A DNA stretch of 48,310 nt from a virus. This document shows positions 32,398 to 48,310 of the stretch, piece after piece. A program made the translations under genes and the position numbers. Where the stretch lies: positions 1 to 48,310 of the IMG/VR virus record IMGVR_UViG_3300018920_000002. One strand, 5' to 3'. The notes under the pieces are model-generated. The model was not told the origin of the DNA. It was given only the letters and a program-made list of their open reading frames with translations, and did not search any database. Each line of letters begins with the position of its first letter. The stretch's first letter is position 1.

Positions 32398-33255
32398 CTA
32401 CATCGCGCCGATCGAGCGAAGATATCTGCGGATTTCGTCGCGAGCCGCATTCGCGCCGAGAGCCGCGATACGCCGTTTAAACCACGGATCGAGCTTGCCG
32501 AGAAGCCGCGCTAGCGGAAGGTTCTCGATCGGCTCCGGCGCCGGTTCGCTCGCCTTGACGAACGTAGTCACGTCGCCGGACTCACCTAAGAGCCGATCGA
32601 GAGTAGAGCCCGCGATGAAAGCGTTTCCCTTCTGACCCCATTCGGTCCCCCACGAATTCCGGAACTCGAAAAGGTCGTTCTCGGAGTCGTATCCGATCAG
32701 CGCGATTTCGTGTCCGCCGACAACGCTTGCCGTACGGCCGATCTCAACCACCCCGGCGGGGGTGGGATCGTAAAACGTTGAATACCAGTTGATTCCAGCG
32801 ATGGCCGGACCGTCCTGAAGCGCGAGCGCCACTCCGGCAACACCGCTCAGCACGTGCTGATACCCGCTGATCCAACCCCGGCCGGTCAGAGCCTTACCTA
32901 TCGAAAGTCCGTCGCACCCGGTGTCTTCGGGCGGGTAGTCGCCCTGATAGTCGTCAAGCCGGGTCGCTTCGGCGTACAGAGCTACCGCGTCGGCTTCCAC
33001 GAAGAGCCGGGCCTTCTCCGGTCCGCCCGGGATGTCGGAGGCGTAGGGCGCGCACGAAATCGCCGTGAGACCAGCGTTTCCCGTGCAAGATCCCACGGAG
33101 CCCTGATCGAACACACGGGCGGCCGGTTGCCACCGAACGGACTGAACGATGGTGTGGGGGGATCGGAAGGCGTAGCCGATGGAACGTTCGTCATGCTTGA
33201 CGTTCCGACCGAGACGCTTATCGGTCGTCGGCATCCTGAAGAAATCAACGGTCAT
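32398..33255 (-). CDS. Papain-like (C1 family) cysteine protease
   Basis: 285 residues. DQGSVGSC gives the oxyanion Gln51 and nucleophile Cys57, six residues apart as in papain; GGHEIALIGYD gives His182, and FRNSWGTEWG gives Asn200. All catalytic residues of the C1 fold are present. There is no signal peptide and no long propeptide. The last 60 residues are helical and charged. Papain-like enzymes are rare in tailed phages; here it sits among probable host-takeover genes. Targets are unknown. No good ribosome site precedes the ATG; Met8 at 33234 is an alternative start. Confidence 0.85.
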   Translation of the reverse strand: MTVDFFRMPTTDKRLGRNVKHDERSIGYAFRSPHTIVQSVRWQPAARVFDQGSVGSCTGNAGLTAISCAPYASDIPGGPEKARLFVEADAVALYAEATRLDDYQGDYPPEDTGCDGLSIGKALTGRGWISGYQHVLSGVAGVALALQDGPAIAGINWYSTFYDPTPAGVVEIGRTASVVGGHEIALIGYDSENDLFEFRNSWGTEWGQKGNAFIAGSTLDRLLGESGDVTTFVKASEPAPEPIENLPLARLLGKLDPWFKRRIAALGANAARDEIRRYLRSIGAM

Positions 33256-33282: not shown

Positions 33283-33319
33283 TTCAGCCCCGACCGGAGA
33301 CCACCCGGCCGGGGCTGAA
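33283..33319. terminator. Terminator between small-gene operon and protease gene
   Basis: 15-bp arms (33283-33297 and 33305-33319, one mismatch) with a 7-base loop. It lies downstream of the tiny membrane gene on the minus strand. Confidence 0.7.
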
Positions 33320-33322
33320 GAT

Positions 33323-33336
33323 GTTTCACGTGAAAC
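33323..33336. promoter_or_regulatory. parS-like site 1
   Basis: Perfect 14-bp palindrome GTTTCACGTGAAAC, preceded by T, so 15 of 16 bases of the known ParB site consensus TGTTTCACGTGAAACA. Lies in the gap after the tiny membrane gene. Confidence 0.8.
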
Positions 33337-33417
33337 TTAGCGGTTCCGCTTCTCCGCGAAGTAGATGAAGCCCACTACTCCGACGATGATCAAAATGAAG
33401 CCAATCACATTCGCCAT
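33337..33417 (-). CDS. Tiny single-span membrane protein
   Basis: 26 residues, almost entirely one hydrophobic helix (VIGFILIIVGVVGFIYF) with a basic end. It starts one base after the TGA of the upstream gene. Function unknown; such micropeptides often sit in the inner membrane. Confidence 0.55.
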   Translation of the reverse strand: MANVIGFILIIVGVVGFIYFAEKRNR

Positions 33418-33418
33418 G

Positions 33419-33616
33419 TCAGTATCTCCCCCAATCCTCACTCTCGTAGGAACGTGGAACAGATTCGTTCTCCGTTTCACGTGAAACGGGCGGAGCCGCC
33501 TCGAAAGGCTCAGAGCGCCACTCGCCGACACAGTACGTCGGCAGACTGACTGACTCAGCGAAGCATCCGCGAGCCATACAGTCCATCCGGCTTGGGCAGG
33601 AAACTAGGATGATCAT
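33419..33616 (-). CDS. Small Cys-containing protein spanning a parS-like site
   Basis: 65 residues with four Cys in the first half (SCPSRMDCMARGCF, later TYC) that could bind metal. The C-terminal part is polar and includes PVSRET, which is the in-frame reading of parS-like site 2. It lies between two tiny membrane genes with almost no gaps. Function unknown. Confidence 0.5.
   Translation of the reverse strand: MIILVSCPSRMDCMARGCFAESVSLPTYCVGEWRSEPFEAAPPVSRETENESVPRSYESEDWGRY
33474..33487. promoter_or_regulatory. parS-like site 2
   Basis: Perfect GTTTCACGTGAAAC core inside a coding region, read in frame on the minus strand as Val-Ser-Arg-Glu-Thr. Confidence 0.78.
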
Positions 33617-33619
33617 CGG

Positions 33620-33697
33620 TCACATACCGAAGAGCATGATGAACATGCCTACCGTGATGACGACGAGTGTTCCGAGCAACATCGGTACGATTTCCAT
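33620..33697 (-). CDS. Tiny membrane peptide
   Basis: 25 residues forming one hydrophobic helix (MLLGTLVVITVGMFIMLFGM). It starts in a TAATG overlap with the HicA-like gene. Function unknown. Confidence 0.5.
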   Translation of the reverse strand: MEIVPMLLGTLVVITVGMFIMLFGM

Positions 33698-33930
33698 TAT
33701 CTGTCTGCCTTCTTCCTCTGCTTCTTCTTCGGAAGCTCTAACCCGGTTCCGCTCTCTATCTGACAGAGGAAGTTCTTCCATGCCCGATAGTCGGATGAGT
33801 GCTTACTGATGCCGGTCACGACACACCCTGTTTCACGTGAAACAACGTTCATATGTGAGCCCCCGTCGGGAACGAGATCGTAACCCGTTCCCGACAGGAA
33901 CCGCTTCAGTGACCGGAGATCGTTGATCAC
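33697..33930 (-). CDS. HicA-like small protein
   Basis: 77 residues resembling the HicA/YcfA dsRNA-binding-like fold: an N-terminal helix (LRSLKRFLSGTGYDLV), then GGSH with the key His, a beta hairpin, and a final helix (YRAWKNFLCQIE). In toxin-antitoxin systems HicA cuts mRNA, but no HicB-type antitoxin adjoins it, so the role here is open. VVSRET inside it is the reading of parS-like site 3. It starts at GTG in a GTGA overlap. Confidence 0.6.
   Translation of the reverse strand: MINDLRSLKRFLSGTGYDLVPDGGSHMNVVSRETGCVVTGISKHSSDYRAWKNFLCQIESGTGLELPKKKQRKKADR
33829..33844. promoter_or_regulatory. parS-like site 3, full 16-bp consensus
   Basis: TGTTTCACGTGAAACA, an exact match to the parS consensus bound by ParB in most bacteria. 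It lies within the HicA-like gene. Confidence 0.85.
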
Positions 33931-34070
33931 GCGTTCCGGGAAGCGCGCTCAGCGGCTTCCCGGAGCTTGTTCGGGTCAACGCCCGTGGTCTGGGCAACTC
34001 GCTCGCCGTACCGGGCGTTATGCTGCTCCGCCCACGTCGGGTTCACGTTCCCCGAAAGTGCCTGCCCCAT
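33927..34070 (-). CDS. Small hypothetical protein, first gene of leftward operon
   Basis: 47 residues, polar and helical (TWAEQHNARYGERVAQ, then VDPNKLREAAERAS). The start follows the phage leader GACGACGAAGGG, and a promoter lies at 34104-34133. It is coupled to the HicA-like gene by GTGA. Function unknown. Confidence 0.6.
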   Translation of the reverse strand: MGQALSGNVNPTWAEQHNARYGERVAQTTGVDPNKLREAAERASRNA

Positions 34071-34103
34071 GCCGTTTCCCTTCGTCGTCCGGCTGATGTC
34101 TAA

Positions 34104-34133
34104 AGACTACACGACATCCCCGGTTCTGTCTAA
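34104..34133 (-). promoter_or_regulatory. Leftward promoter
   Basis: Minus strand -35 TTAGAC (34128-34133), 18-base spacer, -10 TAGTCT (34104-34109), followed by the leader element before the ATG at 34070. Divergent from the promoter at 34157. Confidence 0.6.
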
Positions 34134-34156
34134 TTTTCCTGAGATCCTGGTTCGTG

Positions 34157-34185
34157 TTGCGTTTACACGTCGAACCGTGTAATGT
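34157..34185 (+). promoter_or_regulatory. Rightward promoter containing the operator-like motif
   Basis: -35 TTGCGT (34157-34162), 17-base spacer, -10 TAATGT (34180-34185). GTTTACAC (34161-34168) overlaps the -35 and spacer, as at the SprT promoter. Confidence 0.72.
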
Positions 34186-34222
34186 TCTTCTTGTCAGCAG
34201 GAAACGAACCAAGGAGAACGAA

Positions 34223-34441
34223 ATGAGCACGAACCTCCGATCCGCAGAGTTCAACGGGGTCACGGTCTACGCGGTCCGCATGGCGACGAAGTTCGTTTCG
34301 CTCTACTCCAAGGTTGGGGACAAGCCCGAAGACGGTTACCTGACCGTGGAACACCGGACAGAGAACGCGGCTCGCAAGGGTTCGTGGCAGTCCAAGGAAA
34401 TGCGGAAGGTGTGGGTTTACCGGGGTTACGTCGCGATCTGA
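34223..34441 (+). CDS. Small hypothetical protein
   Basis: 72 residues, basic, alpha/beta-looking (GVTVYAVRMATKFVSLYSKV, ending VWVYRGYVAI). It has a strong ribosome site AAGGAG and is the first gene of the rightward small-gene array, probably under control of the operator-like motif. A terminator closes it. Function unknown. Confidence 0.65.
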   Translation: MSTNLRSAEFNGVTVYAVRMATKFVSLYSKVGDKPEDGYLTVEHRTENAARKGSWQSKEMRKVWVYRGYVAI

Positions 34442-34448
34442 GAAAGTC

Positions 34449-34488
34449 GGTCCGGGGAGTTGAAAAACTCCCCGGACCTGTGTAAGCT
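34449..34488 (+). terminator. Terminator with embedded promoter
   Basis: 13-bp hairpin 34449-34461 / 34466-34478 with GAAA loop. The loop side supplies TTGAAA (34460-34465) as a -35, and TAAGCT (34483-34488) is the -10 after 17 bases, so one 40-base element stops one gene and starts the next. Confidence 0.7.
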
Positions 34489-34523
34489 CTACATCATAAG
34501 GAAACGACGAAGGGGATGCAGAA

Positions 34524-34937
34524 ATGACCGATCGTTGCCAGTGGGGAGTTACCGGGTTCGTCGGCCCGAACTGGACGGGGATTCAGTGCGACGGTGAGAA
34601 GATCCACGGGTACCGGACGAAGCTGGACGACGCTTCGGGTACGGCCACCGAATACCACCACGGGAACGTCACCTTCGGGGTTTACTGGAACGAAGGCGAC
34701 GAGAACGCCGTCGGGCCGGATGACCTGATGAAGCCGCCTCCGGTGGAGTCCGACCCGGAAGACCCGGAGCTGAGCGCTACCGAGTGCTTCGTGATTCAGG
34801 TGGACAATTACGAGAACGCCGAAGTTCTGGCCGTTGCCATGTCGAAGGCGGCTCGCGACACGTTCCTTCGGGTCTATAACCTCAACCGGCACACGGACGC
34901 GGCGAAGGCGGTCCGCACGACGCTTCTCGTCGGATGA
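34524..34937 (+). CDS. Hypothetical protein
   Basis: 137 residues. The N-terminal half (CQWGVTGFVGPNWTGIQCDG, EYHHGNVTFGVYW) is beta-rich, and the C-terminal half (ENAEVLAVAMSKAARDTFLR) helical. The two early Cys are unpaired elsewhere. Start after the leader ACGACGAAGGGG. It overlaps the next gene by four bases. Function unknown. Confidence 0.65.
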   Translation: MTDRCQWGVTGFVGPNWTGIQCDGEKIHGYRTKLDDASGTATEYHHGNVTFGVYWNEGDENAVGPDDLMKPPPVESDPEDPELSATECFVIQVDNYENAEVLAVAMSKAARDTFLRVYNLNRHTDAAKAVRTTLLVG

Positions 34938-35323
34938 GTCGGAAACGGTCTCTGTTCCGGCGCGTGGTCCGTGGGATCGCGCGCCGGTACGAAGCGAACC
35001 AGAAGGCGAAGAAAGCCGCCGAGAAGCGCCGTGAGCGCGCTCAGAAGGCCATTCTCCGGCAGAGCCGGACCACGGCCGGTGAGCTTGTCCGGTCCGGCGA
35101 TTACGAGTGGTCCGGCCCGGCTCTGCCGGATTCTACGAAGGTAGAACCGGTGATGGGACCGAACGGATGGGAGTTCGTTCCCGTGGCCGGAGCGAGCCGC
35201 ACACGGCCGAAGGCGGCCGGTTCCTCCCCGGCCGGGGCGAAGCTGTGTGGCGCTCGCACGAAGAACGGCACGGCGTGTAAACGTCGTGGTAAGTGCCCTG
35301 ATCATCCGCAGAAAGGAAGCTGA
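34934..35323 (+). CDS. Basic protein with C-terminal zinc motif
   Basis: 129 residues. The first 45 are a very basic helix (RKAKKAAEKRRERAQKAI-like), suggesting nucleic acid binding. The tail CGARTKNGTACKRRGKCPDH fits a short Cys3-His zinc motif common in phage and bacterial small proteins. It carries the CCCCGGCCGGGG palindrome at 35226 and GTGTAAAC at 35275. ATGA overlap start. Function unknown. Confidence 0.62.
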   Translation: MSRKRSLFRRVVRGIARRYEANQKAKKAAEKRRERAQKAILRQSRTTAGELVRSGDYEWSGPALPDSTKVEPVMGPNGWEFVPVAGASRTRPKAAGSSPAGAKLCGARTKNGTACKRRGKCPDHPQKGS

Positions 35324-35324
35324 C

Positions 35325-35522
35325 ATGATTTACCGAATGATCGTCTCGGAGGACAAGGAAAGCATGAACGCCGGTAAAACCGGTGATGGCACCGTGGATC
35401 TTCCGGCCCGTCCAGTCGTCGGCGATACCGTCATCATCGGTGGAATCCTCTACACCGTCACCGGAGTCACGATGACGGACGGCGAGCCGCTGATGACCGT
35501 GTTCGGTCTACTCAACGTCTGA
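35325..35522 (+). CDS. Small beta-rich protein
   Basis: 65 residues starting one base after the previous stop, with ribosome site AAAGGAAG. The text (VVGDTVIIGGILYTVTGVTM) suggests a small SH3-like or beta-barrel fold. A terminator follows. Function unknown. Confidence 0.6.
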   Translation: MIYRMIVSEDKESMNAGKTGDGTVDLPARPVVGDTVIIGGILYTVTGVTMTDGEPLMTVFGLLNV

Positions 35523-35528
35523 TTTCAG

Positions 35529-35574
35529 AAAAAGTCCCCGGGATTCGTTCCCGGGGGCTTTTTCGTGCTAAGGT
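35529..35574 (+). terminator. Terminator followed by promoter
   Basis: Arms 35529-35543 and 35549-35563 (one G-T pair), T run, then an extended -10 TGC-TAAGGT (35569-35574) before the next leader. Confidence 0.75.
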
Positions 35575-35611
35575 TTACCCATCAGCAAGAAACACCGACG
35601 AAGGAGACACC

Positions 35612-35869
35612 GTGAGCGAGATTCAGAAGGTCATCACCGGAATGAGCTTCGTGGACTACGAAACGGGAGTCAGCTACCGTTTCGAGCGGATCATCGGAGA
35701 CGTGTTCCGGATCTTCACCCGGGAGTGCATCATTGACCCGTGGGTTATCGCCGGAAGCTTCGAGGTGAAAGACGGGAAGACAGAGTTCTTCTCGGACGAA
35801 GGCGAGAGCTTCGAGACAATCGACTCAGTGGATAACTTCGAGATTCTGGCCTTCCTTCAGTCAATCTGA
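35612..35869 (+). CDS. Small hypothetical protein
   Basis: 85 residues, alternating strands and acidic loops (GVSYRFERIIGDVFRIFTRE, FFSDEGESFETIDSVD). GTG start after ACCGACGAAGGAGACACC. Flanked by its own promoter and terminator. Function unknown. Confidence 0.62.
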   Translation: MSEIQKVITGMSFVDYETGVSYRFERIIGDVFRIFTRECIIDPWVIAGSFEVKDGKTEFFSDEGESFETIDSVDNFEILAFLQSI

Positions 35870-35873
35870 TCAG

Positions 35874-35914
35874 AAGCCCCCGGGTTGCGAGACCCGGGGG
35901 CTTTCCTGTAAGCT
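35874..35914 (+). terminator. Terminator with embedded promoter
   Basis: 12-bp hairpin 35874-35885 / 35892-35903. TTGCGA in the loop (35885-35890) is placed 18 bases before a -10 TAAGCT (35909-35914). Confidence 0.72.
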
Positions 35915-35945
35915 CTACACATACACCGACGAAGGGACAGAGACG

Positions 35946-36344
35946 ATGAAGTTCGCACCTTGGAGTATCAGCACCGACGATCTGACGCCGGAGCGGATCG
36001 AGCTCTTCCGGAACCAGCTTCCTCCGCGCGTCATCATCTCCGACGACGAACTTAAGGCAGTCCTGATTTTCGGGATCGAGCACGAACCGTGCTCCGCCTG
36101 TGATGGAACCGGCGAAGAGAAGGTGCAGTGCGACGAGTGCCAGGGCTCCGGCGAAGGGGACGACACGTGCCCGGAATGCCAGGGCTCCGGCAATGACGAA
36201 GAGTACGGGGGCGACTGTGAGAACTGTGACGGGGAAGGCGAAGTTTCCCCGGATTCGTGCGATGAGTGCGACGGAGATGGGGAAGTGGACGGCGACTGCA
36301 CGGCGGACGGGTGCAACGGAAAGGGCTACGTGAAGCGCACGTGA
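35946..36344 (+). CDS. DnaJ-type zinc-finger domain protein without J domain
   Basis: 132 residues. After an acidic N terminus come repeats of Cys-x-x-Cys-x-Gly-x-Gly (CSACDGTG, CDECQGSG, CPECQGSG, CENCDGEG, CDECDGDG), the central domain of DnaJ/Hsp40. No HPD J domain is present, so it cannot stimulate DnaK in the usual way; it may bind host proteins or act as an anti-host or folding factor. Own promoter, leader and terminator. Confidence 0.75.
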   Translation: MKFAPWSISTDDLTPERIELFRNQLPPRVIISDDELKAVLIFGIEHEPCSACDGTGEEKVQCDECQGSGEGDDTCPECQGSGNDEEYGGDCENCDGEGEVSPDSCDECDGDGEVDGDCTADGCNGKGYVKRT

Positions 36345-36358
36345 TCTGAAAACCGCAG

Positions 36359-36403
36359 AGAAACCCCCGGAACTTGCGTTCCGGGGGTTTCTTCGTGTAG
36401 TCT
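36359..36403 (+). terminator. Terminator with embedded promoter
   Basis: 15-bp hairpin 36359-36373 / 36378-36392, loop TTGC. TTGCGT (36374-36379) starts in the loop, 18 bases before a -10 TAGTCT (36398-36403). Confidence 0.75.
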
Positions 36404-36449
36404 CTTCACATCAGCCGGAAACACCGGCTACCGACGAAGGGCTAAGAAA

Positions 36450-36944
36450 ATGGCTTCGATCCTCTGCCGCAACGGTTCCGAGCACCGCCACTCCTCCGTT
36501 CCGGAGTCCCGCGCGTGCTGGACGATCGGCCGGAACCCGTTCGCCGGTTCCTCCCCGGCCGGGGTGAAGCCGGAGACAAGTCCCGTTTACACGGCTCCGG
36601 TTCCCTTCGTCCCGGGGCCGGTCAAGATGCCTCCGGCGCCGGTGGAGGTGACCGAAGGTTTCTGGATTGTCGAAGACGAAGGCGGGAAGGCGCCGGAGTT
36701 CTTCAAGATTCAGATGTCCGGCCGGTCGGAGCGTCTGTACGGGAAGAAGCTCGAAGGTGAGTCCTTCGAATACTTCGCGAACGCTCCGCGCTACGTGTCG
36801 GCGAACTGGGGTCGGAAGCTCACGGCCGAAGACGCGAAGTGGTTCGGCAAGCTTTACGGCCGGTGCATGATCTGTGGCCGGACGCTCGAAAACGAAGAGA
36901 GCATCGCAAACGGCATCGGGCCGGTATGCGCCGACAAGCTCTGA
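36450..36944 (+). CDS. DUF6011-like zinc-binding protein
   Basis: 164 residues. The C terminus (GRCMICGRTLENEESIANG, then GPVCADKL) has the Cys-x-x-Cys ... Cys arrangement of DUF6011-type domains seen in many actinophages. The centre (LYGKKLEGESFEYFANAPRY) is a second small fold, and the N terminus is Cys- and Pro-containing, with one CCCCGGCCGGGG at 36553 and GTTTACAC at 36585. Start after ACCGACGAAGGGC. Function unknown. Confidence 0.65.
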   Translation: MASILCRNGSEHRHSSVPESRACWTIGRNPFAGSSPAGVKPETSPVYTAPVPFVPGPVKMPPAPVEVTEGFWIVEDEGGKAPEFFKIQMSGRSERLYGKKLEGESFEYFANAPRYVSANWGRKLTAEDAKWFGKLYGRCMICGRTLENEESIANGIGPVCADKL

Positions 36945-36956
36945 GAAATATTAAAG

Positions 36957-37001
36957 ATCCCCCGGGAAACCGGGGGATTTTCTCGTTTTTCGTGGTAAGC
37001 T
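36957..37001 (+). terminator. Terminator followed by promoter
   Basis: Hairpin 36957-36965 / 36970-36978 (GAAA loop) with T run, then extended -10 TGG-TAAGCT (36996-37001). Confidence 0.68.
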
Positions 37002-37037
37002 TCTCTTGTAAGCGAAACCGACGAAGGGACAAGGAAA

Positions 37038-37145
37038 ATGGGGCTCAAGATCCCGAAGCAGATCAAGTGCCCGATCTGTGGGAACTACGTCTGGTCTACC
37101 GTGTTCGCGGTTCACCTGATGGCACACGGCGCTAAGCGGAGGTAG
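37038..37145 (+). CDS. Mini C2H2 zinc finger protein A
   Basis: 35 residues: CPIC near 11-14 and HLMAH near 27-31 form a single Cys2-His2 finger on a basic background (KIPKQIK, AKRR). Leader ACCGACGAAGGG before the ATG. It resembles the next gene, suggesting a duplicated pair. It may bind DNA or RNA of the host. Confidence 0.65.
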   Translation: MGLKIPKQIKCPICGNYVWSTVFAVHLMAHGAKRR

Positions 37146-37148
37146 TTC

Positions 37149-37196
37149 GGAAAGTCCCCGGGAAACCGGGGACTTTCCCACTTTCTGTGCTAGACT
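37149..37196 (+). terminator. Terminator followed by promoter
   Basis: 13-bp hairpin 37149-37161 / 37166-37178 with GAAA loop, then extended -10 TGC-TAGACT (37191-37196). Confidence 0.72.
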
Positions 37197-37224
37197 CGTC
37201 TTACCGACGAAGGGAGGACAGAAA

Positions 37225-37311
37225 ATGGCTACCGCAACATGTTGCGGACGGAAGTTCAAGGTTCCATCATTCGCGTACTTGCTCCATCTCGCGATCGCGC
37301 ACGGCAAGTAA
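37225..37311 (+). CDS. Mini zinc finger protein B
   Basis: 28 residues: Cys-Cys near 6-7 and HLAIAH near 21-26, the same finger frame as the previous protein but with adjacent Cys. Leader ACCGACGAAGGGAGG before the ATG. Function unknown. Confidence 0.58.
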   Translation: MATATCCGRKFKVPSFAYLLHLAIAHGK

Positions 37312-37317
37312 GTACTA

Positions 37318-37346
37318 CCGGCCCCGGGGAATCTCCCCGGGGCCGG
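37318..37346 (+). terminator. Hairpin without T run
   Basis: Perfect 13-bp arms 37318-37330 / 37334-37346, no T run and no clear promoter behind it, so the next gene may be read through from the finger gene. Confidence 0.55.
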
Positions 37347-37368
37347 ACCCCGACGAAGGAGACCAGAA

Positions 37369-37551
37369 GTGATCACGATTGCATTCTTCCTCAGCGTGGA
37401 CGGCGGAAAGCCCCGGACCGAAGAGCACATCATGCCGGTTGTGCCGTACGTCGGTACAACCTTCGTCAACCGGGATGGATGGGAGTTTACGGTTACGGAG
37501 ATCCGGTTCCACGCGAACGGGCACGTTACCGTGACTGCCGAAGCTCAGTAG
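37369..37551 (+). CDS. Small hypothetical protein
   Basis: 60 residues, beta-rich (IAFFLSVDGGKPRTEEHIMP, ending VTVTAEAQ). GTG start after CCGACGAAGGAGACC. A terminator follows. Function unknown. Confidence 0.6.
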   Translation: MITIAFFLSVDGGKPRTEEHIMPVVPYVGTTFVNRDGWEFTVTEIRFHANGHVTVTAEAQ

Positions 37552-37559
37552 GAAACCTG

Positions 37560-37607
37560 AGAAAGTCCCCGGGATTTCGGTTCCGGGGGCTTTTTCTGTG
37601 CTAGTCT
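37560..37607 (+). terminator. Terminator followed by promoter
   Basis: Imperfect hairpin 37560-37595 ending in TTTTT, then extended -10 TGC-TAGTCT (37602-37607). Confidence 0.68.
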
Positions 37608-37643
37608 TCAGACATAAGCTAAACACCGACGAAGGGCCAGACA

Positions 37644-37805
37644 ATGAGTGCGAACGTTGAAATGATCCGGACAACGCCTCAGGGTCAGAAGATCGGGCTC
37701 CGGGTCTTCGCCAATGACGGAAGCGGACTTCGGATCGGGCTCACGAACGACGAAGCCCGGAAGCTGATCGAAGACCTAACGGAAGCGCTCGCACAGACCA
37801 CCTGA
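37644..37805 (+). CDS. Small hypothetical protein
   Basis: 53 residues with a strand-helix pattern (GLRIGLTNDEARKLIEDLTE). Leader ACCGACGAAGGG. Last gene of the rightward array; a bidirectional terminator follows. Function unknown. Confidence 0.62.
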   Translation: MSANVEMIRTTPQGQKIGLRVFANDGSGLRIGLTNDEARKLIEDLTEALAQTT

Positions 37806-37817
37806 GAGAGAAAAGCA

Positions 37818-37852
37818 GAAAGCCCCCGGTGACCCTGACACCGGGGGCTTTC
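37818..37852. terminator. Bidirectional terminator
   Basis: 14-bp arms (37818-37831 and 37839-37852) between the convergent small-gene array and the leftward operon. Confidence 0.85.
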
Positions 37853-37867
37853 GCGCGCTCAATCCGC

Positions 37868-38464
37868 CTAGCCGACGAAACCGGCGAAGAGCGCTAGGTG
37901 GGCTAAGGCGAGCGCGGCCGAAGCGAAAAGGCACACCTTCGAAGCCGGATCGCGCAACCCGAACCAGAGCTTCACTCCCTTCCGGTTCCGGCCGGTCTCG
38001 CTCAGTCCACCGGTCTCCCATCCTAGGCCACGGGCGCGACCTAGGACCTTGATCCGGCCATAGATCATGTCCCCGGAAAGGTGAGACCACCACCCGAATA
38101 GCGGGAAGCTCCAGATAGCCCACAGAGACGCTGAAATCGTCGCCGAAGCCTCCGGTACCCGGGAAACCAGATAGAGCCCCGGAAGACCCCACAGAAAGCT
38201 CAGGATCAGCGCGAACCACGGCCGGTGAGTCAATCCCCGATGTCCGCCGATCGCGTAGCCCCTTCGAGGCGGACCCGGAGCCCACGTGTGATCTATGTCC
38301 GGCGACAGATTGCCGCTCGCGAAGAACTGAGCCCCGAAAGCGGCAACGGCCGCCGACATCGGGTTAACCAGAAGGTCATGCCCGGTGCCGACGGCCGCCG
38401 CGTTTAAACAGTACGTCGTGCCTAACGTGTAGGTGATCGCGTAGGCCCGGTGCGTCCGCTTCAT
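37868..38464 (-). CDS. YdjM-like metal-dependent membrane hydrolase
   Basis: 198 residues. SPDIDH, GGHRGLTHRPWF and GWWSHLSGDM place the His/Asp metal ligands of the YdjM (LexA-regulated, DUF457) family among several hydrophobic helices. The family's chemistry is thought to act on membrane lipids, but the substrate is not known. It starts in a TGATG overlap with the gene before it and ends the leftward operon at a strong terminator. Confidence 0.75.
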   Translation of the reverse strand: MKRTHRAYAITYTLGTTYCLNAAAVGTGHDLLVNPMSAAVAAFGAQFFASGNLSPDIDHTWAPGPPRRGYAIGGHRGLTHRPWFALILSFLWGLPGLYLVSRVPEASATISASLWAIWSFPLFGWWSHLSGDMIYGRIKVLGRARGLGWETGGLSETGRNRKGVKLWFGLRDPASKVCLFASAALALAHLALFAGFVG

Positions 38465-38760
38465 CACGGGGCTTCAGCGCCGTTCTCAGGCGGTAACCAG
38501 GCTTCCCCGGATACTTGGATGAACCTCAGCGGCTCAAGCCCGGAGATCCCCGGCTCAGGGTTGTCCGGCGACATCTGGACGATACCGGTCACCGGGCGAG
38601 AAAACACCTTGCCTCCGGCTTTCTTGACTTGCTTCTCCCATTCCGTGATGCAACCCCGGGCGTAAATCTGAACCCGAAGATCGCTCTCGTCCCGACCCGT
38701 GAACTCCGGATCAAGCTGGAAATGCACGTTGAACCGTTCGATCTTCATTCCGTCGGTCAT
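38464..38760 (-). CDS. Hypothetical protein
   Basis: 98 residues. FQLDPEFTGRDESDLRVQIY followed by CITEWEKQVKKAGG suggests an alpha/beta fold. Start set at the ATG after GGAAGAGGAAG; it overlaps the upstream stop (ATGA). Function unknown. Confidence 0.6.
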   Translation of the reverse strand: MTDGMKIERFNVHFQLDPEFTGRDESDLRVQIYARGCITEWEKQVKKAGGKVFSRPVTGIVQMSPDNPEPGISGLEPLRFIQVSGEAWLPPENGAEAP

Positions 38761-39008
38761 TTCTGCTTCCTCTTCCAATCAAGGTAGAAGTCCATGAAAT
38801 CTTGCCGGTGGTCTACGCCGGTCCTGATCTGAAGCGAGTCCAGATAATCCCGGTGAATCTGAAGCATTTCCTGAGTCGCACGGAGCCGACGGTAAAACGC
38901 ATCCCATCGGGCTTCGATCCGGTTAATGATCTCGACTTTAGTCCGGTAATCGACGGAGAGCTTAAGAATAGCCGTCGGGACTAAAGGTCTCACTCTTCGA
39001 GTGCTCAT
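38757..39008 (-). CDS. Helical hypothetical protein
   Basis: 83 residues, nearly all helical and basic (YRTKVEIINRIEARWDAFY, RRLRATQEMLQIHRDYLD). It looks like a coiled coil. Coupled to the next gene. Function unknown. Confidence 0.6.
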   Translation of the reverse strand: MSTRRVRPLVPTAILKLSVDYRTKVEIINRIEARWDAFYRRLRATQEMLQIHRDYLDSLQIRTGVDHRQDFMDFYLDWKRKQK

Positions 39009-39010
39009 GT

Positions 39011-39178
39011 CTAATCCTCACTGAGCCATTGGGGAACTTCTTCTTCCGTGGTGAGTTCGATATTAGTCACAGCTCCCTTCAATGAATAGGGAGCGACATT
39101 TCGAAACGTAATATCCCCCCATTCAAGCGGAGCGTCCGGAAGCTCAAGAATCTTCCGGGCTAAGTCGTGACTGTTCAC
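39011..39178 (-). CDS. Small hypothetical protein
   Basis: 55 residues (HDLARKILELPDAPLEWGDI...). The GTG at 39178 is preferred: it lies four bases after AGGAGG and overlaps the previous stop as GTGA. An ATG one codon earlier is too close to the ribosome site. The motif resembles small phage proteins that start with an LARKLLELPD helix. Function unknown. Confidence 0.6.
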   Translation of the reverse strand: MNSHDLARKILELPDAPLEWGDITFRNVAPYSLKGAVTNIELTTEEEVPQWLSED

Positions 39179-39459
39179 CATTCCTCCTGAATCATCACTT
39201 CGCCGGAGTTCCAGCTTACCGTAAGAACCCACGTCCTAGGGTGCCGGAGCAGACAAATAATCCCGAACACCGGAACCCACAGACCTAGGCTCACAATGCA
39301 CATCATCGCGTGCGATTTGAGCTGAGCCTGAGTTAGCCCACCGGTTCCAATAATCACCGTATCGGGGCTCACGATCTTGAGAACGCGAGCCCCTTCGTTC
39401 TCCGCGAGGAAGGCGAGAGTCACAGACTCCCTCCTAGCCTCCATCTGAGCGAGATTCAT
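39175..39459 (-). CDS. Small membrane protein
   Basis: 94 residues with one hydrophobic span (MMCIVSLGLWVPVFGIICLL, about 51-70) between a helical N terminus and a beta-like C terminus. Coupled by ATGA to the DUF2637-like gene and GTGA to the next. It may belong to the same membrane complex. Confidence 0.6.
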   Translation of the reverse strand: MNLAQMEARRESVTLAFLAENEGARVLKIVSPDTVIIGTGGLTQAQLKSHAMMCIVSLGLWVPVFGIICLLRHPRTWVLTVSWNSGEVMIQEEW

Positions 39460-40295
39460 GCCGTCCTTTCCTGATCCGTCTTACCCGTCTTGTTCGCCCG
39501 GACCGGGCCGAACACGTTGGACTTGATCCGCTTCGCCGACGCGAGCGAGCAACCCAGAGCTTCCGCGATCTGAGCCGGAGTGAGCGACTGACCCCCCGAT
39601 TCCTTCTTGAGCCACGCTTCGCCCTGAGCCACAACGGAACCGCCCCGGCCGGTCCTTTTCTGAGCCTGAGCCACGACCGGCCGGGGCTTGAGCCGGGTCA
39701 CGTTCTGAGCCGAAGCGGGCTCAATAACCAGATGGCTCACTTCGACCGGCTCAGCCTGAGCCGGAGCCGTCGGGGGCTCAGGCTCCGTTTCCGGCTCAGT
39801 TGCCTCCGCCTGAGCCTGAGCTTCGACCGGCTCAACCGGGGTCGGCTCAGGCTCAGCCGGAACGATCGGCTCAGGCTCAGTGAACGCCTGAGCTGGAACG
39901 ATGACCTGAGCCAATTCGACCGGCTGAGCTTCCTCCGGCTCAGCGTCCGTTTCGAGCCACATCAGGAGCAGAGCCGCGACCGGGGGAAACAGAGCCACGA
40001 CGAAGCCGGAGGCTGAGCCAACGGCAGAAGCTCCGTTGACCCATAGCGTCCAGCTCAGCGAAACAGAGCCGAGAACGTACGCCTTAAAGTCCAGTTTCCC
40101 CCGGACGGCGAGCGAGATCAGGATCAGCTCAGGAATCGCGGCCGTCCCGATGGCGGAGCGCTGATAGAAATTCGTGTCCGGCGACCACTTCTGAGCCCAG
40201 TGAACCCCGTGAAGGTAAGAGTTCACGAAGGCGTAAGTCGTGAGCAGAGAGACAAGGCTCCGGCTCACGGACCGTCGGTTCATGCGGATCTTCAC
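39456..40295 (-). CDS. DUF2637-like four-helix membrane protein with C-terminal HTH
   Basis: 279 residues. The first 125 hold about four hydrophobic spans (AAIPELILISLAVRG and ASGFVVALFPPVAALLLMWL among them), resembling the DUF2637 proteins encoded beside TraB-type genes of Streptomyces plasmids and integrative elements. A Pro/Glu/Ala linker (130-215) leads to a C-terminal helix-turn-helix-like segment (LTPAQIAEALGCSLASAKRI). It could tether DNA to the membrane. Starts 2 bases after the translocase gene at a GTG. Confidence 0.65.
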   Translation of the reverse strand: MKIRMNRRSVSRSLVSLLTTYAFVNSYLHGVHWAQKWSPDTNFYQRSAIGTAAIPELILISLAVRGKLDFKAYVLGSVSLSWTLWVNGASAVGSASGFVVALFPPVAALLLMWLETDAEPEEAQPVELAQVIVPAQAFTEPEPIVPAEPEPTPVEPVEAQAQAEATEPETEPEPPTAPAQAEPVEVSHLVIEPASAQNVTRLKPRPVVAQAQKRTGRGGSVVAQGEAWLKKESGGQSLTPAQIAEALGCSLASAKRIKSNVFGPVRANKTGKTDQERTA

Positions 40296-40297
40296 GT

Positions 40298-42178
40298 CTA
40301 CTCCCGGTTAGCTGCAATGAGCCCGGAACCGTCTTCCGGACCTTCGTCGGTGTCGTCTCCTTCCGACTCGAAGCCGGGTGAAGACTGGTCAAGCTCCGGG
40401 ACCTGAGGCACGTTTTCGAACTGAGCCTTTAGGTACCCCCGAACTTGCTTAGCTCCAATATAGGGCCTTCCCGGCTCAATTCCAAACGGTTTCAGCGAAT
40501 CAGCCAAATTCTTGCCATTTACGCTGGTCAAGCCGTCTTCGTGCAGAAGCTCAATTAGTCGAGCCGTAGGGAGCACATCGGCTTCCGCACGTGTAAACGC
40601 CCGTAGAACGGTCCCGACCGGCTCAGGGTACCGAGACCCCATCGGGATCACGTTCGACGGCCGGTGAGCCGCACGAAGGCTCACAGCGGCGCTCGCGACC
40701 CGTTCCAGCTCTTCGAGTCCGACAAGGTGACACCGGGTCCGGCCGACTCCGACCGTGATGGAAACCCCCTTCTGATCCGGGTCCAGCCAATCGGCCCGAT
40801 ACATCGGTCCGGCTTTCCCTAGGATCGCTTGCGACCCGGAAACACCGGCAATGTAGAACGCCGTCCGACGAATCACCATGTCGCGGAGATCCACCGGAAT
40901 CACCTTCGAAGAAGGACGCTGGGACGCTAGAATGCAGAAGACCCCGAAAGCCGGTCCCATCTTCACGTTGGAAAGAAGGATGTCTAGGAAGTCCTCCACT
41001 TCGTCTTTGTGCTTCTTCAGGAGATCGGAAGTAATTACCGCCATCTCGTCAATAACGGTCCATTCCGTAGTAAGGTTCAGCTTACGGGCAACCGGCCCGG
41101 AAAGCTTCGCGTACTTCCCGAACATGAGTTGCCTACGCCGATTAATCTCTTTCTGCTGAGCCTTGACGTGCTGAGTAGCGAGCCGGAGAAGCTGAAGATC
41201 CGAGTAATTCGGGTTCGCAATGAACGTCTTCGCGACTCGCTCAACCGGCGCGAAGTCCACGGCTTTACCGTCGATCATGTGGAGTTCGGCCATCGGGTCA
41301 AGCATGATCGGGACGATGAGATTAGAAAGGAAAATGGTCTTTCCCTTACGCGGCGCTCCGCCGACGATCCATCCGCCTCCGTCGCCTTCTTCGACAAGAC
41401 GCGCGAGCCACGGAGAGGAATCCGCGAGAACGCCTAGATCGCATTCGTACTCCCACAGGTCGATCTGTCGCGGAGCGACAACGAGAGGGTTCGACGTGGG
41501 CGGGAGAGACCAGGGGTCACGGTCAAGGGACAGAAGCCGGACAAGCGAATCATCACCGGCGACGGACTGTGTAAACGTCGTCAGCTTGTCCTTCTGCATC
41601 TTCTGCGCAAGCGTGCCAACCCCGGCCGGGGAGAGAGCCTTCGACGCGTCGCCTTCGGACGGAATCCGCACAGTGACCGTGTAGCCCGTTCCCCGGGAAA
41701 GCCGGGCCGGAGGATCGACAATCGCGACAACGGGCGGAGTTTCCTTTTTGCGCTCGCTCGCCGGAATGGTAACCTCTTCGAAGATTCGCCGGATGAACGA
41801 CTCTCCGGCCATCCGCTTAGTCTGAACCTCCGTCATCACCGGATCGGTGTAGCCGATGAAGAATAACGTCGCGACGTGAACCCAAATGAACAGAGCCGCC
41901 CAATACCACGGCTGAACGATCGCGTAGACGAGAACCGTCGTCCAGAGGAAGACGAAGAGTCCCATCGTCCACCGACGGCGCATCGTCACTTCTTCGTGCT
42001 TCGTCGGGTTCGTCGCCCGTAGTTCTGCACGGTCGGCCGCATTCAAGAATTGGTGGCCCTTGCGAACTACCTTGTCGAGCCCACGGTATTCCGTGGCAAT
42101 CGTCTTTCCTAACGTCTTCGGGTGGAGTACGGATATAAGTCCGGCAACTCCCCGTTCGTACCAAGTTGACGCGTTCAC
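40298..42178 (-). CDS. FtsK/TraB-like DNA translocase
   Basis: 626 residues. Two membrane helices at about 72-110, then a RecA-like motor: Walker A GGAPRKGKT near 270 and Walker B WTVIDEMA near 374, with LASQRPSS as the sensor stretch. The C terminus has a winged-helix-like part and an acidic tail. The closest known design is the TraB/TraSA translocase that moves double-stranded DNA between Streptomyces hyphae. A phage could use it for DNA segregation, entry or transfer; this is inference. GTG start; GTTTAAAC (42180-42187) lies between the ribosome site and start. Confidence 0.8.
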   Translation of the reverse strand: MNASTWYERGVAGLISVLHPKTLGKTIATEYRGLDKVVRKGHQFLNAADRAELRATNPTKHEEVTMRRRWTMGLFVFLWTTVLVYAIVQPWYWAALFIWVHVATLFFIGYTDPVMTEVQTKRMAGESFIRRIFEEVTIPASERKKETPPVVAIVDPPARLSRGTGYTVTVRIPSEGDASKALSPAGVGTLAQKMQKDKLTTFTQSVAGDDSLVRLLSLDRDPWSLPPTSNPLVVAPRQIDLWEYECDLGVLADSSPWLARLVEEGDGGGWIVGGAPRKGKTIFLSNLIVPIMLDPMAELHMIDGKAVDFAPVERVAKTFIANPNYSDLQLLRLATQHVKAQQKEINRRRQLMFGKYAKLSGPVARKLNLTTEWTVIDEMAVITSDLLKKHKDEVEDFLDILLSNVKMGPAFGVFCILASQRPSSKVIPVDLRDMVIRRTAFYIAGVSGSQAILGKAGPMYRADWLDPDQKGVSITVGVGRTRCHLVGLEELERVASAAVSLRAAHRPSNVIPMGSRYPEPVGTVLRAFTRAEADVLPTARLIELLHEDGLTSVNGKNLADSLKPFGIEPGRPYIGAKQVRGYLKAQFENVPQVPELDQSSPGFESEGDDTDEGPEDGSGLIAANRE

Positions 42179-42210
42179 CGTTTAAACTCCCCTCAGAGTT
42201 GAAATGAAAC

Positions 42211-42251
42211 CGCCCCGGCCGGGGCTTCTTTCGAATGCTCCGACCGGGGCG
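42211..42251 (-). terminator. Hairpin upstream of the translocase gene
   Basis: 12-bp arms 42211-42222 and 42240-42251 with one G-T pair, including the palindrome CCCCGGCCGGGG (42213-42224). Confidence 0.6.
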
Positions 42252-42265
42252 TGTTTACTGGTAAA

Positions 42266-42835
42266 TCAGGAGTCGAACTCGTCCGGCTCCGGGTTGTCCT
42301 TCAACCACTGAAGAGCGGTCTCCTTCGCGGCGCTGGACGCGTCGCCGAAGGCGTAGGGCTTGTTCCCACCCTTCTTCGCCGGAGGAAGAACCATGATCTG
42401 AGCGAGGATCTTGCCGGAACCGGTACCCGCGAGCTTCCGCGAGTAAACCCCGTCCATCTGCTGACCCAACATTTGATTCGAGATGTAGAGGTCAGAAACC
42501 AGGAACGGGGGGACAAGGGGCTCTTCGAGCTCCGCCGTAACGTCGCCGTCCTTGTCCACGATTTCCGAAATCGGCTCGCCGTCCAGAACGACCACATCGG
42601 CCGTCCAGCGGTCAACCGGCGCGTTGTCCGGATACTGCGGGTTCACGTGCTTCCGATCGACCTTCTTCGGAATGACGAGAACCGTCCGGCCGACGCACTT
42701 CGCCACGGTCACTTCGGCCGGGTCACCGGCCGCGTAAGTCGCCTTCCGCTCCACACCGCCCCGGGAAAGCATCTTGATCGTGGGACGCTGAGAGAAGTTG
42801 ACCTTACCGGCGCTTTCGAACATGTCGTCCGACAT
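42266..42835 (-). CDS. Hypothetical protein upstream of the translocase
   Basis: 189 residues from an ATG after AAAGGAAT. The text alternates strands and loops (ERKATYAAGDPAEVTVAKCV, VVVLDGEPISEIVDKDGD) with a Gly/Lys-rich patch and an acidic tail (NPEPDEFDS). The acidic end recalls single-strand-binding type proteins, but no family is recognised. It is upstream of the translocase in the same direction. Confidence 0.6.
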   Translation of the reverse strand: MSDDMFESAGKVNFSQRPTIKMLSRGGVERKATYAAGDPAEVTVAKCVGRTVLVIPKKVDRKHVNPQYPDNAPVDRWTADVVVLDGEPISEIVDKDGDVTAELEEPLVPPFLVSDLYISNQMLGQQMDGVYSRKLAGTGSGKILAQIMVLPPAKKGGNKPYAFGDASSAAKETALQWLKDNPEPDEFDS

Positions 42836-42887
42836 TTTCCGTATTCCTTTTCGTAGACGTGACGTGAGGTAAACCATATTCAGTTAT

Positions 42888-43009
42888 CGAGTGGGGGCGC
42901 CGGATTCGAACCGGCACTTATGACGGGTAACGCCCGAATGCTCTACCACGGGTTCACGTTCTAGACCGCTCGCCCTTTAAGCTAAAACCCCCTCGAATAT
43001 TCAGTTATA
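42888..43009 (-). other. tRNA-like sequence, apparently degenerate
   Basis: On the minus strand a perfect T-arm (GCCGGTTCGAATCCGGC, 42900-42916) is preceded by GTGGTAGAGC, typical of a tRNA D-arm, and closed by GGGGG/CCCCC pairing. The candidate is about 103 bases, too long for a standard tRNA, and no 5-bp anticodon stem with a 7-base loop can be drawn. The block is flanked by TATTCAGTTAT at 42878-42888 and 42999-43009. It could be a decayed tRNA, a tRNA mimic or a rearranged pair. Confidence 0.4.
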
Positions 43010-43107
43010 AGTGACAGGGTACCAATTCGCCTGTCTCCCGGAGCAAATCACTAACCGATTCCATTCGGCGCTCTGCACCACTAGGAATCTCCGGCCCTTA
43101 CATTCGA

Positions 43108-43290
43108 TTACTGAGAAATCTGAGCAATCGCGAGAAGAAGAACAATCGCGGTGAACAGATTCCAGAAGAAGCTGATGACCTTGACGCTACCGCTCAGGGG
43201 CGGACGTTCCTTCGTCGTGTCGGCCGCCGAGATGACTGCCGTACTGATCACCTTACACCCGATCAGGAACCAGAGAAGAGGAAGGATCAT
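43108..43290 (-). CDS. Small two-span membrane protein
   Basis: 60 residues with hydrophobic helices at both ends (ILPLLWFLIGCKVISTAV and VISFFWNLFTAIVLLLAIA) and a charged middle. Overlaps the preceding tiny gene by three bases (ATGATG). Function unknown. Confidence 0.6.
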   Translation of the reverse strand: MILPLLWFLIGCKVISTAVISAADTTKERPPLSGSVKVISFFWNLFTAIVLLLAIAQISQ

Positions 43291-43379
43291 CGTGCAACCC
43301 GCTTCCCGGTAGACGGCTTCTCGGCGCGGAAATCCTCACGCTGAGCCTTCGGAGTCCACGGTTTCATGTGCTTCGCCAT
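43287..43379 (-). CDS. Tiny basic protein
   Basis: 30 residues, Lys/Arg-rich. The phage leader CCCGACGAAGG precedes its ATG, and a TGG-TAGGCT box (about 43435) could be its promoter. Its 5' end overlaps the 3' end of the larger frame from 43677. Function unknown. Confidence 0.5.
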   Translation of the reverse strand: MAKHMKPWTPKAQREDFRAEKPSTGKRVAR

Positions 43380-43677
43380 TGTCGGTGTTCCTTCGTCGGG
43401 GGAGTAATCTCGTCGGGATCATGCTCTGTGAGCCTACCATGCGTTCGGCGGCTTCGAACAGAAATTCTGGACTCGTTTCACGTGAAACGAGGCGGACCTG
43501 TGTAAACGGGCTAAGCCGGTCGGTCGTCATTCCGCTTGCGAACACCGGCCGGACCGCTCCGGCCCGAATGTCGATCTCCCATCCTTCGACCTGAAAGGCG
43601 CACATCTCGCCGTAAAGATCAAGAATGATGAGAAAGTCTTCGGGCCGGAGCGAACCGGTCACCCGGGGAGAGACCAC
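43336..43677 (-). CDS. Hypothetical protein spanning a parS-like site
   Basis: 113 residues from a GTG three bases after the upstream stop. The N-terminal 85 residues look folded (RPEDFLIILDLYGEMCAFQV, VRPVFASGMTTDRLSPFT). VRLVSRETS is the reading of parS-like site 4, and GTTTACAC (43500-43507) is also inside. The C-terminal 30 residues overlap the leader and start of the next tiny gene and may be dispensable. Confidence 0.5.
   Translation of the reverse strand: MVSPRVTGSLRPEDFLIILDLYGEMCAFQVEGWEIDIRAGAVRPVFASGMTTDRLSPFTQVRLVSRETSPEFLFEAAERMVGSQSMIPTRLLPRRRNTDNGEAHETVDSEGSA
43475..43488. promoter_or_regulatory. parS-like site 4
   Basis: Perfect GTTTCACGTGAAAC palindrome, 9.6 kb from the three-site cluster and again read as Val-Ser-Arg-Glu-Thr. 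Confidence 0.78.
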
Positions 43678-48096: not shown

Positions 48097-48309
48097 ATGT
48101 CTCAGGAATGGCTGAGCCGGAAGGAAGCCGCTCAGTATCTCGGAGTGAGCGCGGATACCGTTGACCGGCTCGCTACTCGCGGAACCATCACGAAATACCG
48201 GAACCCTGAGACCGGCATGGTTCGCCTGAGGAAGAGCGAGCTAGACGACGCTTTCCAGCCGGTGTTACCGGTTGGAGAGATCCGGTCCGAAGCGCTCAGT
48301 TTTCGGTAG
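48097..48309 (+). CDS. Excisionase-like helix-turn-helix protein
   Basis: 70 residues. LSRKEAAQYLGVSADTVDRL followed by a wing with KYRNPETG is the HTH_17/excisionase (MerR-like winged helix) fold. Such proteins bind short direct repeats cooperatively, which fits the phased CCGCA array upstream. No integrase is present, so a regulatory rather than excision role is likely. ATG 48097 follows CGACGACGAAGGAGAG. Its 3' end is duplicated at the start of the window, and in the closed genome it leads to the DNA polymerase gene. Confidence 0.75.
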   Translation: MSQEWLSRKEAAQYLGVSADTVDRLATRGTITKYRNPETGMVRLRKSELDDAFQPVLPVGEIRSEALSFR

Positions 48310-48310
48310 A
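48188..48310. repeat. Terminal direct repeat, right copy
   Basis: Identical to bases 1-123; see the left copy. Marks the overlap of a circularly closed assembly. Confidence 0.95.

Follow-up and report, generated by a model that had tools for sequence, protein, structure and literature searches.

Predicted orphan parS sites of the chromosomal type in a tailed actinophage genome and in other phages

Introduction

Why would a phage carry what look like bacterial centromeres when neither a ParA nor a ParB gene can be detected in its genome? ParB is a CTP-dependent clamp, and the question was raised by a viral sequence of 48,310 nt (IMG/VR record IMGVR_UViG_3300018920_000002, positions 1 to 48,310; this whole stretch is referred to as the window). 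An initial annotation made from the letters alone had proposed that four copies of a 14-bp palindrome in it are chromosomal-type parS sites, which may recruit host ParB. The consensus of chromosomal parS in B. subtilis is TGTTNCACGTGAAACA, with one degenerate position (PMC7022226). A chromosomal par operon that contains only one parS is able to stabilise a plasmid that is otherwise unstable (PMC7022226).

Results

Four exact palindromes in the window

The 14-mer GTTTCACGTGAAAC was present in the window in four exact copies, starting at positions 33323, 33474, 33830 and 43475, just where the initial annotation had placed them, and no copies with one or two mismatches were found in the window. 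Such a 14-mer had been expected far less than once in 48 kb; the computed expectation was 1e-4 exact copies from base composition and 3e-4 from an order-3 Markov model. In 100 dinucleotide shuffles, the mean number of matches at up to two mismatches was 0.17, and four were never reached. The grouping of three copies within 520 bp was likewise seen (33.3 to 33.9 kb), and the fourth site was located at 43.5 kb. Compared with chromosomal parS, the window showed a 14 to 16 bp fit to the consensus (four exact 14-mers and one full 16-mer) and several sites in a short region (three in 521 bp).

Site 1 (33323..33336) is intergenic, has T..T flanks and lies between the stop codon of a 26-aa ORF and a peptidase gene. 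Site 2 (33474..33487) has C..G flanks and forms an 18-bp palindrome. Site 3 (33830..33843) is the full 16-mer TGTTTCACGTGAAACA, which agrees with the description of the third copy as the complete 16-bp consensus. Site 4 (43475..43488) has C..G flanks and forms a 20-bp palindrome. Sites 2, 3 and 4 are translated in frame as Val-Ser-Arg-Glu-Thr (VSRET) within small minus-strand ORFs of 65 aa (33419..33616), 77 aa (33697..33930) and 113 aa (43336..43677), respectively. The 77-aa product matched phrog_2089 (unknown function, E 4.5e-7), the 65-aa product had no PHROG match, and the 113-aa product had no family match. The 65-aa ORF ends shortly before the start of the 26-aa ORF (33337..33417, minus strand), which encodes a predicted membrane protein and whose stop codon abuts site 1. 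The peptidase gene adjoining the cluster (32398..33255, minus strand) matched phrog_16701 (E 6e-40).

No sigma-70-like promoter was found at 33.2 to 34.3 kb. A GC-rich hairpin is located at 33287-33317 beside site 1 (minus-strand RNA, z -5.3) and has no T run. A GC-skew origin at the parS cluster was considered and rejected, as there was no genome-wide turning point there and the maximum was near 37.5 kb.

Gene content of the window

The ends of the window are identical over 123 bp (1-123 and 48188-48310), and the record is therefore a complete genome, circular or terminally redundant. The end overlap of G053, the closest complete relative, has exactly the same length, which suggests that the identical ends arose in the assembly, as an overlap in a circular or permuted genome, and are not a biological repeat. 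The window contains genes of tailed actinophages, coding for a family A DNA polymerase, primase-helicase, terminase, portal, capsid, tape measure and amidase-type lysin.

Six-frame profile searches of the window gave no match to ParB_N (PF02195) at E<=10 and did not detect the ParA-type AAA_31 (PF13614), consistent with the earlier observation that no ParA or ParB gene is visible. No ParB family was among the PHROG matches of the window. Neither a tyrosine integrase (PF00589) nor a serine recombinase/resolvase (PF00239) was found in the six frames. The window has neither the parA nor the parB gene of a phage-encoded ParABS, and it has no tyrosine or serine integrase of the kind that marks an integrating temperate phage. 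As for a phage-plasmid, only an FtsK/SpoIIIE-like ATPase and the adjoining membrane protein point toward plasmid-type genes.

The ATPase (40298..42178, minus strand; phrog_1358, E 5e-21) is weakly similar to Streptomyces plasmid proteins and has a homologue in G053 with 42% identity. The membrane protein (39456..40295, minus strand) has a weak C-terminal helix-turn-helix and also has a homologue in G053. This pair recalls the conjugative modules of actinobacterial plasmids, and the ATPase region is possibly a plasmid-like module. Searches of named phages gave no match, either by megablast with the site region or by tblastn with the FtsK-like and phrog_2089 proteins. Single-protein searches of IMG/VR confirmed no relatives of the terminase or the FtsK-like protein.

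Relatives of the window and other actinophages

Relatives of the window were collected by a tail-protein search, independently of the motif. G053 (48,149 bp; ends overlapping by 123 bp) shares synteny with the window, and the proteins of the two genomes are mostly 30-78% identical, including the FtsK-like gene product. The parS cluster is absent from G053, which has a single degenerate site elsewhere, downstream of the capsid gene and beside a ribosome-binding site. No sites were found in four fragmentary relatives (G050, G051, G052 and G054), and in a distant relative (G031) a single exact site lies immediately beyond the late operon. Twelve other named actinophages with related genes had no site at up to one mismatch. 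Because G053 lacks the cluster and the fragments lack sites, the sites are gained or lost within this family; we infer that they may nevertheless be under selection within the window phage itself.

Conservation in Korravirus

One motif-bearing viral contig was identified as Arthrobacter phage Bennie. Korraviruses are lytic Arthrobacter phages, and phages of cluster AK have been described as lytic (PMC11468179). We sampled 13 Korravirus genomes down a similarity ranking by neighbourhood nucleotide matching, not by the motif. The 14-mer between the DNA polymerase gene and a purA-like gene (site B, 19 nt upstream of the purA-like start) was intact in all 13 genomes, and it was the only invariant 14-column window among 1422 in the alignment, across which pairwise identity drops as low as 78%. 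In Nubia, the C..G pair that flanks this site was replaced on both sides, giving T..A.

A second site was intact in 12 of the 13 genomes. In Litotes it reads GAGTCGCGTGAAAC, so that SRET is retained and the palindrome is lost. The initial annotation had regarded a retained peptide with a broken palindrome as evidence against parS; this pattern occurred once, at one of the two Korravirus sites, and the other 12 genomes weigh more heavily. Relatives of the window's own three VSRET ORFs for the same codon comparison were not found. The remaining Korravirus matches at up to two mismatches were all GTTCCACGTGAAAC, a variant at the position that is also degenerate in the B. subtilis consensus. The number of sites per Korravirus is 1-4, and their locations are largely fixed; ParB_N was not found in the seven genomes tested. 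The alignment argues strongly that the Korravirus sites are selectively maintained, as far as sequence comparison can tell.

The motif across viral contigs

Scanning IMG/VR with the 14-mer gave at least 120 loci. A one-base control 16-mer was also abundant (at least 119 loci); collection-wide abundance was therefore dropped as proof, and clustering was used instead. Raw counts prove nothing here, and the evidence from IMG/VR is clustering, flanks and the mismatch spectrum. A locus counted as clustered when it had two or more sites, whether exact or degenerate. Among the matches listed, clusters were found at 19 of 120 motif loci versus 2 of 119 one-base-control loci (Fisher p 1e-4), and the reversed palindrome gave 20 loci, none with a cluster. 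The reversed motif was absent from the 30 records examined. Two or more sites were present in 17 of the at least 120 motif-bearing loci listed, and these 17 multi-site records gave no match to ParB_N. Among 24 further motif-bearing records, two contigs encoded ParB.

The mismatch spectrum was obtained from 236 parS-bearing viral loci, in which 12 of 18 one-mismatch copies differed at the degenerate position of chromosomal parS (p 6e-7). T..A flanks were the commonest in an unselected viral scan (93 of 147). The motif with parS-type degeneracy was found in unrelated phages of 30-72% GC.

Several individual contigs showed other arrangements. In L139, an 18-kb contig of 41% GC, the 14-mer occurs in three close intergenic pairs (5526/5552, 12131/12155 and 15315/15353), some of which lie directly upstream of a gene start and are operator-like. 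Long inverted repeats are centred on the 14-mer in L295 (18404), L297 (6794), L304 (13920) and L305 (14127). In L397, a viral contig of 116 kb, a 14-kb stretch contains one exact site together with eleven degenerate copies of the TGTTCCACGTGAAACA type. The 14-mers of L142 at 9942 and 10817 have identical flanks, which form an imperfect inverted repeat.

The motif in an actinobacterial chromosome

The tail protein of the window has a homologue encoded in the genome of the actinobacterium Haloactinopolyspora alba. The identical motif is located inside and around parB of this chromosome; within parB it is read VSRET, and close to recF and dnaN there is a degenerate copy. These gene names were read from translated sequences and not from a profile match. 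H. alba may not be the host of the window phage.

Discussion

We consider it likely from the sequence data that the four palindromes are genuine orphan chromosomal-type parS sites that recruit host ParB, with positioning or partition as the likeliest use and other uses possible. Recruitment of host ParB by the window sites is itself highly probable, because the sequence evidence is joined by established ParB/parS biochemistry. The original suggestion of recruitment is thus well supported at this level by the Korravirus conservation, the degeneracy pattern, the viral clustering and the parB of H. alba. Segregation as an extrachromosomal prophage, one of the uses that it proposed, is unlikely as the only role, because the sites are conserved in phages described as lytic. 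Positioning or partition is favoured because the window has no integrase or Par genes, has three sites in 520 bp and encodes an FtsK/SpoIIIE-like ATPase with weak similarity to Streptomyces plasmid proteins.

After infection, host ParB would load at two places, the cluster of 33.3-33.9 kb and the site at 43.5 kb, and would then spread along the phage DNA. The ParB-coated DNA may contact ParA and SMC, resulting in positioning, and phage copies persisting through division would be inherited by both daughters. We infer both the binding of ParB and its consequence, which may be positioning or partition, titration, or transcriptional effects.

The main rival to this positioning role is that the sites act as a decoy: replicating phage DNA would multiply parS, pull ParB off the chromosome and disturb host segregation or the cell cycle. 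Lytic phages keep the sites although partition should matter little to them (PMC11468179), four sites on many phage copies would outnumber chromosomal parS, and the parS-like sites of SGI1 displace its helper plasmid (PMC10954446). However, a decoy does not need clustering within 520 bp, and the few, largely fixed sites of each Korravirus do not fit it well, so that we regard this explanation as unlikely. The palindrome could also be an operator, read by a phage regulator or another host regulator, or a place where bound ParB controls neighbouring genes. The positions of Korravirus site B, the L139 pairs and the G053 site, each close to a gene start or a ribosome-binding site, would suit such a role. 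Sites 2, 3 and 4 of the window nevertheless lie within ORFs, in a window whose cluster region gave no sigma-70-like promoter, and one phage regulator cannot explain the same parS-type degeneracy in unrelated phages of such different GC content. We consider an operator function quite improbable.

It is very improbable that the dyad acts in the transcript as an RNA hairpin or terminator. Against shuffled sequences, sites 2, 3 and 4 showed no clear gain in folding (z -1.0, -0.2 and -1.3), the strong fold near site 1 belongs to the neighbouring GC-rich hairpin and not to the palindrome, and a recurrent C variant breaks the dyad, while all copies keep the same 14 letters. In favour of this reading are the G033 site, which forms the middle of a strongly folding hairpin (z -6.0), and the similar long inverted repeats at sites in G040, G034 and G041. 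That chance or VSRET codon usage produced the matches deserves almost no credence, even though small ORFs translate three of the window sites as VSRET and Litotes retains SRET without the palindrome. This explanation is effectively refuted by the expected copy number and the Korravirus alignment, and other phages show both conservation and clustering. Host ParB recruitment for positioning or partition is thus the reading that we prefer.

SGI1 is the nearest precedent for a borrowed ParABS (PMC10954446). Like the window, it is a mobile element with parS-like sites, and it exploits the parABS of an IncC plasmid; it differs in that the ParB is that of a helper plasmid and its binding has been demonstrated, whereas the window is a phage with chromosomal-type sites known from sequence. 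B. subtilis-type chromosomal parS (PMC7022226) has the identical core, the same degenerate position and the clustering seen in the window, but in the window these sites belong to a phage in which neither ParA nor ParB was detected. Extrachromosomal cluster A mycobacteriophages (PMC7157519, PMC8612146) are, like the window, integrase-free actinophages that may need partition; they encode their own ParA and ParB, and the window encodes neither. In Corynebacterium glutamicum, AlpC of prophage CGP3 (PMC4446434) also concerns phage DNA localised inside an actinobacterial host, although CGP3 relies on a phage-encoded actin-like protein and our reading of the window involves host ParB. Searches confined to the open literature turned up no account of a phage with orphan parS of the chromosomal type, which hints weakly that the arrangement may be new.

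Tentatively, and with some doubt, we put forward a wider proposal: in many phages without ParB, some of them lytic, selection may maintain copies of the host centromere that tie the phage DNA to the host's ParB-ParA-SMC during infection. Such tethering may be a general and so far unrecognised means by which viral DNA is positioned, compacted or inherited. Since Korraviruses are grown on a laboratory strain of Arthrobacter, are lytic and have 1-4 sites, the idea is directly testable. The 14-mer provides a simple signature for phage annotation. If host ParB does coat phage DNA, the commonest bacterial segregation system would be exploited or disturbed via a 14-bp site alone, with no need for a viral protein. 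This would suggest how phages without an integrase or Par genes might persist.
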